DNA of 23,940 bases, from IMG/VR virus record IMGVR_UViG_3300008459_004928, positions 1 to 23,940 of that record. One strand, 5' to 3'. This document shows positions 13,046 to 22,549 of the stretch, one piece after another. The stretch's first letter is position 1. Every line of letters begins with the position of its first letter. The translations under genes were made by a program, and so were the position numbers. This stretch comes from a virus. Under the pieces are notes generated by a model that saw only the letters and a program-made list of their open reading frames with translations, was not told the origin of the DNA and made no database searches.

Positions 13046-13267
13046 ATGGCAAGAGTAGACTTACACAACTTTTTTAAGTTTTACGACGATAGAAATCCAA
13101 GTCATGTAAAAGCAGTTCAGTGGTTGGAAGATAATCTTCCAAACGATGTACTTGAAGATGATGCAGATTGGGCAGAAATTTATAGAGCAAAATCTGGTGG
13201 TGGAGCATCTCCTGCAGCACCTGCTGGTGATGTTTGCCCACATTGTGGAAAATCTTTGGGAAAGTAG
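13046..13267 (+). CDS. Short module protein; zero-frame product before a -1 frameshift
   Basis: ATG 13046 has AGGAG 7 nt upstream. The 73-residue product starts MARVDLHNFFKFYDDRNP and contains HVKAVQWLEDNLP, so residues 4-33 match residues 3-32 of the C39 protein at most positions. A GGGASPAAPAG linker follows, then a single CPHCGKSLGK knuckle and a TAG. The last two codons (GGA AAG) form the slippery heptamer G-GGA-AAG. Ribosomes that do not shift make this short protein; those that slip back one base continue into the lysozyme frame. Alternatively it is an independent small gene, but the low-complexity linker runs on in the -1 frame. Confidence 0.75.
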   Translation: MARVDLHNFFKFYDDRNPSHVKAVQWLEDNLPNDVLEDDADWAEIYRAKSGGGASPAAPAGDVCPHCGKSLGK

Positions 13268-13300
13268 GAGGGGCAGCTCCCTCTACTTCTGGTGCTGCCC
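13258..13300 (+). promoter_or_regulatory. Programmed -1 frameshift signal (slippery heptamer plus stem-loop)
   Basis: GGGAAAG at 13258-13264 is in the X-XXY-YYZ phase (G GGA AAG) with the zero-frame stop TAG following at once. This is the heptamer used by phage lambda for gpG/gpGT. After a 6-nt spacer, GGGCAGC (13271-13277) can pair perfectly with GCTGCCC (13294-13300) around a 16-nt loop. An alternative short hairpin GAGGG/CCCTC is also possible. Heptamer, phase, spacer and structure all meet the usual needs of -1 frameshifting in bacteria. Confidence 0.75.
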
Positions 13301-13779
13301 AAACTAGTAGTGATGATGTCCCTATGATGGGCATTAAGTTAATTAAGGAATTTGAAGGATGTCATTTAAATGCATATCCTGACCCCCTCACTGGTGGACT
13401 TCCAATTACAATTGGTTGGGGTTCAACAAGAGATAAGAATGGGCAACCATTCCAAATGGGTGATAGCATCACCCAACAGGAAGCAGATGAATTGCTGATT
13501 AGTCAGTGCAAAAATCAATTCCTTCCTGCACTTCGCAAAATCCCACATTGGAATGAAATGTCAGATGGAAAAAGAGGGGCTCTTCTCAGCTTTGCTTATA
13601 ATCTCGGTGCTGGTTTCTACGGTGGCGATAACTTTAATACTATTACTAAACGCCTGAAGAATAAAGAGTGGGATTTAGTTCCCGATGCTCTTTATCTTTA
13701 CCGTAATCCTGGTTCAAATGTAGAAGCAGGACTTGCTCGTAGAAGAAAAGCAGAAGGGGATGCTTGGAAAAAAGGATAA
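13264..13779 (+). CDS. GH24 lysozyme domain, expressed by -1 frameshift from 13046
   Basis: This frame is open from 13234 and has no good start: the first ATG (13324) lacks a ribosome site. Read through the slippery site, it extends the upstream 73 residues by 171 to a 244-residue fusion. A Gly/Ala/Ser/Thr linker (VGGAAPSTSGAAQTSS) leads into a T4/lambda-type lysozyme: LIKEFEGCHLNAYPDP, then TIGWGS, with Glu, Asp and Thr spaced like the E-D-T catalytic triad of T4 lysozyme. GALLSFAYNLGAG and GLARRRKAEGDAW match the family's C-terminal lobe. It cleaves the MurNAc-GlcNAc bond of peptidoglycan. No signal peptide, so release would need a holin or virion delivery. Confidence 0.9.
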   Translation, partial: VGGAAPSTSGAAQTSSDDVPMMGIKLIKEFEGCHLNAYPDPLTGGLPITIGWGSTRDKNGQPFQMGDSITQQEADELLISQCKNQFLPALRKIPHWNEMSDGKRGALLSFAYNLGAGFYGGDNFNTITKRLKNKEWDLVPDALYLYRNPGSNVEAGLARRRKAEGDAWKKG

Positions 13780-13879: not shown

Positions 13880-16117
13880 ATGTCTAACTACACGCAAAGG
13901 GCGCTGGCTGCAGCGTCTGCGCTTCTTATTGGAGTGCCGACCACAGCATTCGCAGATACAATTTCTGGTACAGATTTTGAAACTGGAAATACTTCAGGAT
14001 GGAATACTGGAACTCAAACAGGAACCTTAGACAGCACAATCACAGGACAGGGAACGGGTGTTAGTGTTGTCGATAATCCAGTTATCTTCAATGCCCCTTC
14101 TCATGGTGCAGTGGGAAGTCCAACATTACAAGATGGTTCTCCTAACCCATACCACGCACCTGCCGTAACCCCAACCACTTGGGAGTTTGCTCCTTATGGA
14201 GATGCTGGTGCTGCACTACAACCAAATGGTCAGCAAACATTTAATCAAGCAACAGAAGCACTTGGATTAACATCAGCAGAAAATCAAGCAATAAAAGATC
14301 TTCTTACTCAGCAGCAACAACAATCTGGTTTGGGAAATCCAAATCCAACTGATGCTGCTTGGATTACTAAATCAGTCACATTAGAGACTGGAACAGTTTA
14401 TACAATGTCTTGGAACTACATTGGAACTGACTATGTTCCTTTCAATGATGGTTCTATTACTTCACTTGTTTATCAAGGAACAGGTTCTTCTCCAACAGTA
14501 ACCGTTAATAATCAACTTCAAAATTATGCACTGCTTGGATTTACTAATCCTGGAACTGGTGATTATTCAACAGGAACTTATGGTTCTACTGGATGGCAGT
14601 ATTCAACTTATCAAGTAGGTGCTGATGGTGATTATCTTTTAGGATTTGCAGTATTCAACCTTGGAGATACCGCATTATCACCAGTTCTTTTAGTTGATAG
14701 TCAGCCTGGAACTACAACAGCAAATGGTCAATCATTTACTCCTGTTGCTCCAAACAACCCAGATGCTCCATCTGTTGATGAGGTAGCACCAACTCCTGAA
14801 CCAACTCCTGAACCCACACCAGAACCAGAACCTACACCAGAACCAGAACCCACACCAGAACCCACACCAGAGCCAACTCCTGAACCAGAACCAGAACCAA
14901 CTCCAGAACCCACACCAGAGCCAACTCCTGAACCAGAACCAGAACCAACTCCTGAACCTACACCAGAACCAGAACCCACACCAGAGCCAACTCCTGAACC
15001 TACACCAGAACCAGAACCCACACCAGAGCCAACTCCTGAACCAGAACCAGAACCAACTCCTGAACCTACACCAGAACCAGAACCAACTCCTGAACCAGAA
15101 CCACCAACATTATTAAACTCTGTGACTGTTCCTGCACCAGGACTTCCAGTTGTTTCTACTACCGAGATAACTCACAAGTCATCTGAGAAGGACGGAGTTC
15201 AAAAGATTAGAAGAGAGTTTGCAACTACAACTCAAACTCCACTATTAAGACAAGATACTTATAGTGATGGAACCGTTGTAAGTTCATTACTTCTTTCTGT
15301 TGATACTGAAAATACTCACGATGTTCTTTCTGGACGTACTGACCAGTATGATGTTTTAGATAAGATTGGTGGTGGATTACAAAATCTATTCATTCACGAA
15401 CCAACTGAACCGACTACTGATAAGGTAAGAGTATTCAGTAACAACTATTATGCCTGGTCTTCTGGTGAGAATGGATATTCTGGTAAGACTTTAATTATTG
15501 GTGGTGGATTAGAGATTGATATTAAACCAACCTGGACGATTGGTGGTCAGTATAATAATATGAATATTGATTTGGGTGGTGTTGATAGCACTTCTAAACT
15601 TCTTAAAAATCATTATGGAATATTCAATATGTTCCGTGGAAATACATTCTCACTCTTAACAAATGCTGGATATTCTCAGAACAAATATAATGTATCCAGA
15701 AATGTTCAGGGTGTCTTCAATAATGAAAGTTCAGCACAAGGTAAAGAATGGTTTGTAAATAACAGATTATTCTGGCACCTGAATAAAAATGTAACTCCAT
15801 TTGTTGGATATACTGTTGGTAATTATCAGAGAGATGGATTTATTGAAAGTGGTTCAGTTCAATCCAGAAGAACTGTTGATGATGTAAATAAAACTTCACA
15901 TTCTGGTGAGGTGGGTCTAAATATTTCACACCGTTTTGGTGGAAAGAAAAAGGACTTATTTGGAATAACCGTTGGTGGTTCTTATGAGACTAGTGGAATG
16001 ATTGAGGCATCTGCTTCTGTTGATTATAAAGAGATGGTGGTTATTGAAGGAATTCATCAAATCAATGATGGCGTTTCTAACACTGCAGTTTCTGCAAAAC
16101 TTAAATTTAAGTTCTGA
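13880..16117 (+). CDS. Large secreted protein with Pro-Glu-Thr stalk and beta-barrel-like C-terminus
   Basis: A 745-residue protein. A signal peptide (1-25, ending TAFA) is followed by a Thr/Gly/Asn-rich passenger of about 275 residues ([17 protein letters not shown] at its start, like carbohydrate-binding or anchor-type extracellular domains). Next comes a 105-residue tract (304-408) of only Pro, Thr and Glu, which would form a stiff extended stalk. The last part (about 470-745) has alternating aromatic/polar strands such as [15 protein letters not shown] and TPFVGYTVG. It ends KLKFKF, a terminal Phe signature of BAM-assembled barrels. The layout is that of a type V autotransporter or outer-membrane adhesin. 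It has a late promoter motif and a structured leader. No enzyme motif seen; role unknown. Confidence 0.75.
14789..15103 (+). repeat. Coding tandem repeat, Pro-Thr-Pro-Glu tract
   Basis: About 315 nt of degenerate CCAACTCCTGAA / CCAGAACCA units encode 105 residues made of PTPEP and PEPEP. Third positions vary (CCT, CCC, CCA; ACA, ACT), so the peptide pattern is older than the exact DNA repeats. It can change length by slippage. Confidence 0.9.
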
Positions 16118-18870: not shown

Positions 18871-19000
18871 ATCGGAACAAGAAATTAAACAAAAAAAAGT
18901 CGAGAAAGATAACATCTTCCTCGACATACTTTATAATCTTGTAGTTCAACTTCCTGTGATTGCAGTTACTTGGGTTATTTCTAAATTTGATTGGGATTAG
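18845..19000 (+). CDS. 51-residue tail-anchored membrane protein
   Basis: Encodes a charged helix (SKIESEQEIKQKKVEKD) followed by a C-terminal hydrophobic segment (LDILYNLVVQLPVIAVTWVI) and a short end. It is the last gene of the plus-strand small-gene chain. Its TAG shares the four bases TTAG with the TAA of the convergent minus-strand gene, so the two transcripts meet without a spacer. No terminator is seen. Function unknown. Confidence 0.5.
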   Translation: MTQALSKIESEQEIKQKKVEKDNIFLDILYNLVVQLPVIAVTWVISKFDWD

Positions 19001-19881
19001 AACGATAAACGTGCAGATAATTTCTTAGCAATTTTTTTAGCAGGGGCAAAGAGGGATTTAAATCTTTCTTTGCCTTCTTTTGTAAATTTGTCTTTTATCA
19101 CATCATCAATAATAATTTTATTATCAAGTTCATAAAGAGCATTGATTTCAACTTGGTCACGAATGTATTGTTCTACATTAGTTACTTGCTCTACTAGTCT
19201 TGTTCCATCAGCAGAGTATTCAAATACATCAACGTGACCACCCTCAGCCATTACATAATGAAGAACAGGTTTAACTTGTTTAATTTTAATTTTAAACTTA
19301 TTCTTTGTTGCTTCTTTAATCATTGGTTCCGCAGCATTTTTTAATGCATTCAGAACTGTTGTTGATGCTATCGTAGCAGCAGTTGTGACTACTGCGACAG
19401 CACCAGCCGTAGCAACAAGAGAAGGGTCAGGTAGATTAATATCGACTCCATAAGCAGTAAAAGTAGGTTGGGGTTTATCTGCTGGAACTTCTGCTACTGG
19501 AGTAGGAACAGGAGTTTGAGTAGGGGGAGTTTGAACAACCTGAGGCAGTTGAGGAGGGGGGGTAGCATCTGGTAACCCCCTTGTTTTTTCCTGTTGTTCT
19601 TGTGCTTGTTTTTGACGTTCTGCATTTACAGCAGCATCAAACTCTGCTTGAGTTGGAACATTAATAACTGGATACTTGATCGCAGTATTTGGAACATCAA
19701 CAACAGGAACTTCCAATCCACGAACAACAGGTTGCTCAACACCACGAACATTTGGTCTATCTATAGTTGAAATTACAGATGGACCAGAGATTCGATTGAT
19801 GTTTGCATTTGGAACACTAATCGGATTATTTCCGATTATAGGTCTTAGATTTGGATTATCAATTAGTTGTATTGGTTCCAT
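18997..19881 (-). CDS. 294-residue protein with a membrane segment and Pro-rich middle
   Basis: I start at the ATG on the minus strand at 19881, because GAGG lies 8 nt upstream of it; an ATG at 19890 and a TTG at 19896 are alternatives. The N-terminal part is rich in Asn, Pro, Val and Ile (LIDNPNLRPIIGNNP, then VVRGLEVPVVDVPN). A Gln/Glu-rich helix and a Pro/Thr/Gln stretch follow, then a hydrophobic segment at about 155-180 (LVATAGAVAVVTTAATI). The C-terminal half is basic, charged and well structured. It ends ARLSF. It is the last gene of the minus-strand group. Not recognised; a cell-envelope or structural role is possible. Confidence 0.72.
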   Translation of the reverse strand: MEPIQLIDNPNLRPIIGNNPISVPNANINRISGPSVISTIDRPNVRGVEQPVVRGLEVPVVDVPNTAIKYPVINVPTQAEFDAAVNAERQKQAQEQQEKTRGLPDATPPPQLPQVVQTPPTQTPVPTPVAEVPADKPQPTFTAYGVDINLPDPSLVATAGAVAVVTTAATIASTTVLNALKNAAEPMIKEATKNKFKIKIKQVKPVLHYVMAEGGHVDVFEYSADGTRLVEQVTNVEQYIRDQVEINALYELDNKIIIDDVIKDKFTKEGKERFKSLFAPAKKIAKKLSARLSF

Positions 19882-20443
19882 TGACCACATCCTCAACTCT
19901 TGGGTATTTCACAACAACATCGGCACAAACTTTGAAGTAAGGACTATCTGGATGGAACATGACTCCATTCTTATATGCTTCACCGCATTTTAATAATCTA
20001 ACAAGTTCAAAATCTAAACGTGCTTTGTCTGTTTCTGCTTGTTGTCTAGCAATTTCAGTCTCTGCTCTCTTTTTACATAAATTCATTAGATGACTATCTA
20101 ATGGGATGTTGAGACCTGCAGAAATACCCCAGTTCCCATTACGTGATGCAAAGGTTTCTGGGTCATCACTATTATTTTGACTCGTTGTTCCAAATGGGGA
20201 TATTGAAAAAGTTGCCCCCTGACAACTCACTCCACCACCATAAGTATTAAGTGCAAAAGGACCCTGAAGAACTTGAACTGCTTGGTTAGTTACGTTTCCT
20301 GTAGCACTTGCACTTGGTCCAGCAATGTTTGTATTACTAGGTGCAGGAGCACTTTGGGCAAATGCAGTCCCTGTTGAAATTATTGCGTAAAGACAGAGAT
20401 TGATGTAGTGGTTGATTGGGTTTCTGTGGTGCGATCTATCCAT
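19859..20443 (-). CDS. 194-residue exported protein with Cys residues
   Basis: The start at 20443 overlaps the preceding gene by 64 nt in another frame; no later ATG is in place for the signal peptide. Residues 1-30 form an export signal with an unusual polar, His-rich start (MDRSHHRNPINHYINLCLYA) and ending TAFAQS. The mature part is Ser/Asn/Gly-rich (AVQVLQGPFALNTYGGGVSC, QGATFSISPF). It then becomes a long charged helix (KKRAETEIARQQAETDKA) and a Cys-bearing end (LKCGEAYKNGVMFHPDSPYF). Not recognised. It overlaps the next gene by 23 nt. Confidence 0.7.
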   Translation of the reverse strand: MDRSHHRNPINHYINLCLYAIISTGTAFAQSAPAPSNTNIAGPSASATGNVTNQAVQVLQGPFALNTYGGGVSCQGATFSISPFGTTSQNNSDDPETFASRNGNWGISAGLNIPLDSHLMNLCKKRAETEIARQQAETDKARLDFELVRLLKCGEAYKNGVMFHPDSPYFKVCADVVVKYPRVEDVVNGTNTTN

Positions 20444-20745
20444 GTTTCTTTTGCCACTCCAGGTCCGAGATAGGTTTCGCTGAACTGGAATGGAGCACCT
20501 TGAGTCATTATGGAATACCCACTATCTTTTTGTGGGGAACCAGGAATGTTGATGTTCGTACCAGTTACAGTATATGATTCACCAGTTGTATATTCAACTT
20601 GACGAATTGTTTCGATTACTTTTGTTACTGATTCTGTGGTTGCATTGATTGTGCCTCTAGTGAAATTTGGCACAACACTATTAGCGTAAACGGGAGTACA
20701 GGTGACTCCCGCTGCTAAAAGTAAAGCGGGAGTTAAATGTCTCAT
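20380..20745 (-). CDS. 121-residue exported protein, paralogue of its neighbour
   Basis: Starts in an ATGA overlap with the gene at 20742. Signal peptide at 1-21 (MRHLTPALLLAAGVTCTPVY, cut near ANS). The mature part contains SYTVTGTNINIPG, GYSIMTQGAPFQFSET and ends TTSISVFTQ. This matches the order SYSASGTNI, TYDINTPGQAFSFSET and SIELSVF in the upstream gene, so the two are tandem duplicates that have diverged. Beta-rich, Thr/Ser-rich, no Cys in the mature part. A 9-bp hairpin lies in the signal-peptide codons (20705-20733). Confidence 0.72.
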   Translation of the reverse strand: MRHLTPALLLAAGVTCTPVYANSVVPNFTRGTINATTESVTKVIETIRQVEYTTGESYTVTGTNINIPGSPQKDSGYSIMTQGAPFQFSETYLGPGVAKETWIDRTTETQSTTTSISVFTQ

Positions 20746-21203
20746 TTGAATACACTCAGTTCAATAGATCTTTGAGCAGTAGCACTTGTTCCAGCACCAC
20801 CAGCAGTAACAGTAGGAACACCAGTTGGGGAGAGAGTACCTGCAAGGGTTCCTTTCTCGCCACCAACTTGAGTTACACTATCTCCATAGAGATTTGGTGT
20901 TCCAATCACACCATTCGTAACTGTTTGAGTTGTAACGGGAGTATCAGCAGCATTGATAGTTTCGGAGAAACTAAATGCTTGACCTGGAGTATTGATGTCA
21001 TAGGTTCCAGCACCACCAACACCACCAAAGGATGTTGCTTGGATATTGGTTCCTGATGCGGAGTAGGATGCTCCTATTCTGGTCGATTGAACAGCAGCAC
21101 CATCAACTTTTAGTTGAACGGAATCGGTGATTTTTGAGGTGATTTCAGCAGCACTGACGGGAATAGTGAAGAATAACGAAAAGGCAAATAATAGTCTTTT
21201 CAT
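20742..21203 (-). CDS. 153-residue exported protein, first gene of the minus-strand group
   Basis: I start at the minus-strand ATG at 21203 (MKRLLFAFSLFFTIPVSAAE), giving a proper signal peptide of about 18 residues; the longer frame from 21260 has no support. The mature protein is rich in Thr, Gly, Ser and Val, with SYSASGTNIQATSFGGVGG and AFSFSETINAAD, and ends SIELSVFK. No Cys and few charges, like fibre or surface-layer proteins. A late promoter octamer lies 27 nt upstream. It overlaps its paralogue by ATGA. Family unknown. Confidence 0.75.
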   Translation of the reverse strand: MKRLLFAFSLFFTIPVSAAEITSKITDSVQLKVDGAAVQSTRIGASYSASGTNIQATSFGGVGGAGTYDINTPGQAFSFSETINAADTPVTTQTVTNGVIGTPNLYGDSVTQVGGEKGTLAGTLSPTGVPTVTAGGAGTSATAQRSIELSVFK

Positions 21204-21229
21204 TTTCTTATGGTGATTTACACTATAAT

Positions 21230-21237
21230 TATTTATG
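21230..21237 (-). promoter_or_regulatory. Late promoter motif for the minus-strand exported genes
   Basis: On the minus strand this reads CATAAATA, matching the T4-like late octamer, 27 nt before the ATG at 21203. It suggests that the four exported proteins are made late. Confidence 0.6.
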
Positions 21238-21267
21238 GAATCCAATTTCAGATCTGGCACATACCCC

Positions 21268-21466: not shown

Positions 21467-22549
21467 ATGACTGCTACAATTTCACGTCAAAAATCACAAT
21501 CGAATACTTGGGAACAGTTCTGCAACTGGGTAACATCAACCGACAACCGCATCTATGTTGGGTGGTTCGGTGTTCTGATGATTCCAACTCTGCTTGCTGC
21601 TACGACTTGCTTCATCATCGCATTCATCGGTGCTCCCCCTGTAGACATTGATGGTATCCGTGAACCCGTTGCTGGTTCACTCATGTACGGAAACAACATC
21701 ATCTCTGGTGCTGTGATTCCTTCGTCCAATGCTATTGGACTGCACTTTTATCCTATCTGGGAAGCTGCTTCCCTAGATGAGTGGCTCTACAACGGTGGAC
21801 CTTTCCAACTGGTAGTCTTCCACTTCCTCATCGGCATCTATGCTTACATGGGTCGTGAATGGGAACTTTCTTACCGTCTGGGTATGCGTCCTTGGATCTG
21901 TGTTGCTTACTCTGCACCTGTTGCTGCTGCTTCTGCAGTGTTCCTTGTATATCCTTTTGGTCAAGGTTCTTTCTCTGATGCGATGCCTCTGGGTATCTCT
22001 GGTACTTTCAACTACATGCTTGTCTTCCAGGCAGAACACAACATTCTGATGCACCCCTTCCACATGCTTGGAGTTGCTGGTGTGTTCGGTGGTTCTCTGT
22101 TCAGTGCAATGCACGGTTCTCTGGTTACTTCTTCACTGGTTCGTGAAACCACTGAGTCTGAGTCCCAGAACTATGGTTACAAGTTCGGTCAAGAAGAAGA
22201 GACCTACAACATCGTTGCTGCACATGGTTATTTCGGTCGTCTGATCTTCCAGTATGCTTCGTTCAACAACTCTCGTTCGCTACACTTTTTCCTTGCTGCT
22301 TGGCCTGTTGTCGGTATCTGGTTTACTGCCTTGGGCGTTAGCACAATGGCATTCAACCTCAACGGTTTCAACTTCAACCAGTCCATCATCGACTCACAAG
22401 GTCGTGTGCTCAACACCTGGGCAGATGTGCTGAACCGTGCTGGTCTTGGAATGGAAGTTATGCATGAAAGAAACGCCCATAATTTTCCATTGGATTTGGC
22501 TGCTGCAAGCAACACTCCTGTTGCTCTGACTGCTCCAACCATCGGTTGA
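21467..22549 (+). CDS. psbA: Photosystem II D1 protein
   Basis: A complete 360-residue D1. All recognisable segments are present: five transmembrane helices, [26 protein letters not shown], the helix D region [43 protein letters not shown] with the QB/iron His and the C-terminal [13 protein letters not shown] processing site followed by a 16-residue tail. Residue 131 is Glu, at the place of D1 position 130 where high-light forms have Glu and low-light forms Gln. D1 holds the special-pair chlorophylls, the Mn cluster and QB, and turns over fast in light; phage psbA keeps photosynthesis going while host synthesis is shut off. No intron or homing endonuclease is seen. Dual promoters precede it. 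Confidence 0.99.

Follow-up and report, generated by a model that had tools for sequence, protein, structure and literature searches.

The endolysin junction of the window, by which we mean the whole 23,940-nucleotide stretch of viral DNA analysed here, very probably carries a programmed −1 frameshift cassette, one of two designs in T4-like cyanophages that appear to have been built independently. The first, cassette 1, occurs in the window and uses the heptamer GGGAAAG. The second, cassette 2, uses A_AAA_AAG and was identified in phage S-PM2 and its relatives. Programmed −1 frameshifting as such is familiar, and the tail chaperones are its best-known case in tailed phages. What we regard as new is that apparent frameshift joints recur among lysis enzymes and do so in two independent designs. 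No paper on frameshifting in cyanophage endolysins was found in the free-licence literature, outside which most subscription papers lie.

The junction in the window

The features of the locus are collected in Table 1. The frame that opens at ATG 13046 has 73 codons, the last of which, with the stop, read TTG GGA AAG TAG. The initial annotation had described a 73-residue module ending in a slippery heptamer in exact phase, followed 6 nt later by a perfect 7-bp stem and, in the −1 frame, by a Gly/Ala/Ser linker and a GH24 lysozyme; each of these elements was borne out by the letters of the window. The match of the lysozyme to PF00959 scored 79.6 bits, against a gathering cut-off of 22.3. Counting both strands, the window contains a single GGGAAAG. 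The predicted frameshift product would run from ...CGKSLGK into VGGAAPSTSGAAQ.... Profile and structure comparison of the N-module gave no Pfam domain above cut-off and no convincing solved relative. The in-frame fusion was modelled with AlphaFold, but with a poor result (pLDDT 40), and the model was left out of the argument.

Table 1. Positions of the junction elements and flanking features in the window
Feature	Position	Strand	Observation
Upstream gene: N-module fused in frame to C39-like peptidase, 223 aa	12360–13031	+	PF13529 1.4e-14; PHROG 3617/10051
Zero-frame ORF: N-module and CPHC knuckle, 73 aa, ending GGA AAG TAG	13046–13267	+	Homologous N-module in relatives
CPHC knuckle (half of a zinc ribbon)	13235–13246	+	Invariant in 26/26 distinct junctions (alignment)
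Slippery heptamer G_GGA_AAG, in frameshift phase	13258–13264	+	Invariant in 37/37 contigs
Zero-frame stop TAG, adjoining the heptamer	13265–13267	+	TAA or TAG in every relative
6-nt spacer TAGGAG between heptamer and 5′ arm	13265–13270	+	Letters confirmed
Putative stimulatory hairpin, 6 nt past the heptamer	13271–13300	+	Arms GGGCAGC 13271–13277 and GCTGCCC 13294–13300
−1 frame, open: Gly/Ala/Ser/Pro linker and GH24 lysozyme	13264–13779	+	PF00959 3e-22
In-frame ATG ATG bordering the GH24 domain, a possible internal start	13324–13329	+	Absent in L097, L116

The N-module–C39 gene upstream is of the type whose end holds the slippery site in cassette 2. The neighbours of the junction, peroxiredoxin and C39 peptidase genes, count against a tail chaperone G/GT pair, and that identity was ruled out, the products being an endolysin N-module and a GH24 lysozyme. 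Immediately after the endolysin, 13880–16117 encodes a secreted, autotransporter-like protein of 745 aa that contains a long PEPTPE repeat; DSL-LC03 has an annotated autotransporter at the matching place. A cluster of secreted-looking small proteins is encoded on the opposite, minus strand (18997–21260), between the lysis region and psbA (21467–22549). DSL-LC02 has a gene for a small secreted-looking protein (L003 2216–2557) inserted between the C39 and lysozyme genes, which in the window lie side by side.

Conservation of the heptamer and its hairpin

Searches with each half, the N-module and the lysozyme, gathered 160 IMG/VR loci. The two halves lay in one frame at 73 distinct junctions and were shifted at 25; the phase of the shift was −1 in all 25 and +1 in none. 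A DNA pattern scan placed cassette 1 on 37 IMG/VR contigs from 30 metagenomes, representing 26 distinct junctions, a kind of count whose members are phylogenetically non-independent. Cassette 1 was seen in metagenomes only, with no isolate found carrying it. Conservation of GGGAAAG with the stop after it had been proposed as a check on related phages, and heptamer, immediate stop and −1 phase were kept in 37 of 37 independently assembled contigs. Across the 26 distinct junctions, GGA, AAG and the immediate TAA or TAG did not vary at all, and the Leu codon before GGA always ended in G. In the same set, synonymous changes did occur slightly further upstream, in codons for Cys, Pro, His, Gly and Lys. 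A relaxed scan of 2.9 million contigs, admitting any synonymous form of CPHCGK[SP]LG, returned the same 37 contigs and two further proteins (L487, L488), and nothing else; these two fit the knuckle pattern and were rejected as unrelated zinc-ribbon proteins. Among the related junctions in these 2.9 million contigs, no synonymous variant of the heptamer codons was found. The N-module/GH24 junctions were also checked for other phases or other heptamers, and none was seen. Despite differing linker lengths, the −1 frame was open into the lysozyme in every cassette 1 junction (26/26 distinct).

These data bear on the possibility of a sequencing or assembly error, or of an indel that recently inactivated an ordinary in-frame fusion. 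Fusions of N-module and GH24 in one frame are common in close relatives and occur also in DSL-LC02 and DSL-LC03, which would speak for such an origin. One phase and one heptamer are, however, common to contigs from 30 metagenomes, and these independent assemblies refute an assembly error; cassette 2 of S-PM2 is, moreover, present in two deposited genomes. The initial annotation had named one-frame relatives with a single-base difference as grounds for giving up the frameshift. In-frame relatives do exist, but they differ by a whole linker of quite another sequence and not by one base, and restoration by a single base was rejected on this account. An error or recent indel is thus close to impossible as an explanation.

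Taken alone, the hairpin of the window was no better than shuffled sequence (z = −1.2), so that comparison had to decide. Full 7-bp pairing from +6 was present in all 22 distinct downstream sequences, whose linkers vary in sequence and length, and in a few cassette 1 sequences the predicted helix was longer by 1–2 pairs towards the heptamer. Two main stem sequences, GGGCAGC/GCTGCCC and GCGGCAG/CTGCCGC, share one position. Under synonymous recoding of the −1 frame, a stem of at least 7 bp at +6 was expected in 6.6 of 23 sequences with the linker's own codon usage, and in 3.2 of 23 with that of the window; it was observed in 23 of 23. Covariation within the stem subclasses was modest, with two pairs changed on both sides in the GGGCAGC/GCTGCCC subclass, and G-U toggles and no other pair changes in the GCGGCAG subclass. 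By two structure-pair counts it was weak or absent. As a counter-point, the Gly/Ala codons of the linker are self-complementary by nature, and the stems vary little within a subclass. It is the comparative evidence, rather than the window hairpin alone, that lifts the predicted signal above chance. An upstream Shine-Dalgarno-like stimulator was rejected, there being no conserved purine run 5′ of the heptamer.

A second cassette and the origin of the lysozyme

Cassette 2 was uncovered by a search with the S-PM2 lysozyme, followed by reading of the upstream junctions. In S-PM2 and many metagenomic relatives, the N-module–C39 gene ends in GCA AAA AAG TAR or a close variant, and the lysozyme lies in the −1 frame past A_AAA_AAG. 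A pattern scan that demanded a stop codon brought the set to at least 88 distinct cassette 2 junctions, with TAA or TAG adjoining the heptamer in 83 of those listed; the set from the S-PM2 lysozyme search made no such demand and had the same pattern. Rare variants were AAG TCT TAA (L295) and AAG TGA (L312). A helix of at least 9 bp at +3 to +9 was found in 75 of the 83 listed junctions, against 5.8 expected from synonymous recoding, and that of S-PM2 has 11 bp. By sequence, the helices fall into several unrelated families, two of which were aligned and show compensatory changes.

In S-PM2 (AJ630128; L005 1481–1984), the C39 peptidase gene p153 is followed, in the −1 frame, by an entire GH24 domain. 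The junction was found in two deposited records, in which the lysin is annotated as a 219-nt C-terminal fragment; the frameshift joint would be the reason for this 73-codon-scale annotation (S-PM2p154). A GH19-like domain (PF00182) stands in place of GH24 on the −1 frame in L393, L409 and L442, the match in L393 falling just under the gathering score. A very similar cassette linker in L458 is joined to GH24. The comparison indicates a conserved joint behind which the catalytic domain has been exchanged.

The initial annotation held that the lysozyme has no start of its own. This part failed in the window, where in-frame ATGs lie at 13324 and 13327; it stood for L097, which has no ATG, GTG or TTG before the catalytic Glu, and for L116, which has no ATG there. 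Two separate genes might therefore be proposed, with the lysozyme starting from either ATG, perhaps by coupling with termination at TAG 13265; the heptamer would then be coincidental. In most cassette 1 phages ATG ATG stands in frame ahead of GH24 and would permit a stand-alone lysozyme too, and in S-SRM01 an ATG overlaps the C39 stop, with no stem, so that coupling may occur in the wider family. In-frame fusions, however, carry the same ATG without needing it as a start. Among the GH24 cases listed for cassette 2, no ATG occurs between heptamer and catalytic Glu in 79 of 81, and no ATG, GTG or TTG in 47 of 81, so in the latter internal initiation at a usual start codon cannot make the enzyme. 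An internal start as a general route was rejected for L097 and cassette 2. Separate genes would also leave unexplained the invariant GGGAAAG, the fixed 6-nt spacing and a linker kept open in −1 through several lengths, and we consider them very unlikely.

RNA polymerase stutter could in turn create a mixed mRNA pool, and so both products, without ribosomal frameshifting. Polymerase slippage operates in T. thermophilus dnaX where E. coli has ribosomal frameshifting (PMC5009743), and stuttering on the AAAAAA run of cassette 2 is conceivable. GGGAAAG, however, contains no long homopolymer run, and the hairpins found at +5 to +8 in both cassettes, which are unrelated, agree with a ribosomal signal, while stuttering would have no need of them. 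Stutter seems exceedingly unlikely here, and ribosomal frameshifting is the reading we prefer.

The modules themselves occur in several architectures. In the window, the N-module, C39 peptidase and GH24 modules form separate genes with cassette 1; S-PM2 has N-C39 with cassette 2, and S-SRM01 has N-C39 with an overlapping ATG for GH24. In-frame fusions take the form N-GH24 in DSL-LC02 and DSL-LC03 and N-C39-GH24 in ACG-2014f, L291 and L293, and the order is GH24-N-C39 in S-CREM1. In the lysozyme tree, cassette 1 and in-frame forms were interleaved, with at least seven changes forced by well-supported branches. The joint has thus often been gained, lost or swapped, probably through recombination. 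The presence of in-frame fusions in the same lineages implies that some phages can do without the short product. A similar knuckle, CPKCGKG or CSKCGKG, occurs in the linker of several in-frame fusions (L117–L121, L124, L132), and the knuckle is thus not tied to the frameshift. In S-CRM01 gp113 (L009, about 1805–1850), the last 37 aa of GH24 lie in another frame, after KEKDG; the change may reflect an indel, a sequencing error or another recoding site.

Proposed products and comparison with known systems

Tandem slippage is the established model for tRNA re-pairing at slippery heptamers. Judged by its criteria, both cassettes have X_XXY_YYZ in zero-frame phase, and a near zero-frame stop with a conserved domain open in −1 was found in 26 of 26 distinct junctions of cassette 1. 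Nucleotide conservation exceeded the need of the protein in the heptamer codons of cassette 1, and RNA structure about 5–9 nt downstream was present in 22 of 22 sequences for cassette 1 (at +6) and 75 of the 83 listed for cassette 2. From this signal anatomy, its conservation and the association with a −1 lysozyme, we infer frameshifting in vivo at the cassettes. In the window, the majority of ribosomes would terminate at TAG 13265, releasing the 73-aa N-module with its CPHC knuckle. A minority would slip on G_GGA_AAG before the hairpin and reread one base, yielding an N-module–knuckle–GH24 lysozyme fusion of about 243 aa. With the ribosome held up by the hairpin, the tRNAs on GGA-AAG or AAA-AAG would move back by one base and pair anew. 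In cassette 2, A_AAA_AAG with a longer hairpin stands where the N-module–C39 gene ends, and slippage there would add GH24 or GH19.

The purpose is likely a mixture of a short subunit (N-module–knuckle or N-C39) and a muramidase-bearing fusion. The short product would most likely be useful as extra subunits alongside the fusion, non-catalytic in cassette 1 and peptidase-only in cassette 2. As a speculation, zinc might be bound between two chains through the CPHC half-site. The use of two heptamers and several unrelated hairpins for one task suggests that selection for two products, or for a set ratio, must be strong. It may even be that −1 frameshifting is a standard, exchangeable endolysin joint, evolved at least twice beside in-frame fusions, whose fixed mix gives a heteromeric lysis enzyme; this broader view is tentative, and we lean slightly towards doubting it. 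Many cyanophage endolysins are probably cut short or split by gene-calling software. Since natural relatives occur both with the shift and without it, the role of endolysin stoichiometry in lysis can be tested by direct comparison.

The tail assembly chaperones gpG/gpGT of phage lambda also use the heptamer G_GGA_AAG. Their short major product and long −1 fusion are reported at about 30:1 (PMC5009743). Cassette 1 resembles this system in its heptamer and in the pairing of a short product with a long −1 fusion, but the lambda proteins are unrelated and serve tail assembly, whereas here the product is a lysis enzyme and a conserved hairpin stands 6 nt downstream. Cassette 2 has the same A_AAA_AAG and downstream hairpin as E. 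coli dnaX. The dnaX shift, however, leads to an early stop and a shorter product, while that of cassette 2 would add a catalytic domain. Given the lambda ratio and the strong tendency to shift described for A_AAA_AAG in E. coli (PMC5009743), short and long products may be made in different proportions by the two cassettes.

As to lysins, the PRFect paper counts these among the genes known to contain a frameshift and cites a lactococcal phage lysin with overlapping genes (PMC10885494), a case from another phage group and host. LysP7951, Lys170 and LysIME-EF1 each give two polypeptides per endolysin gene, which can form heteromers, and heteromeric endolysins with extra non-catalytic subunits arise by internal starts (PMC9430671); frameshifting is not mentioned in that paper. 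The likeness is that one gene gives a full enzyme and a shorter product. There, however, the internal start is in frame and the short product is C-terminal, whereas in the cassettes the short product would be N-terminal, from termination, and the long one would arise by frameshift. Every distinct shifted junction of cassette 1, moreover, has its halves in different frames, which sets this cassette apart from the internal-start type.
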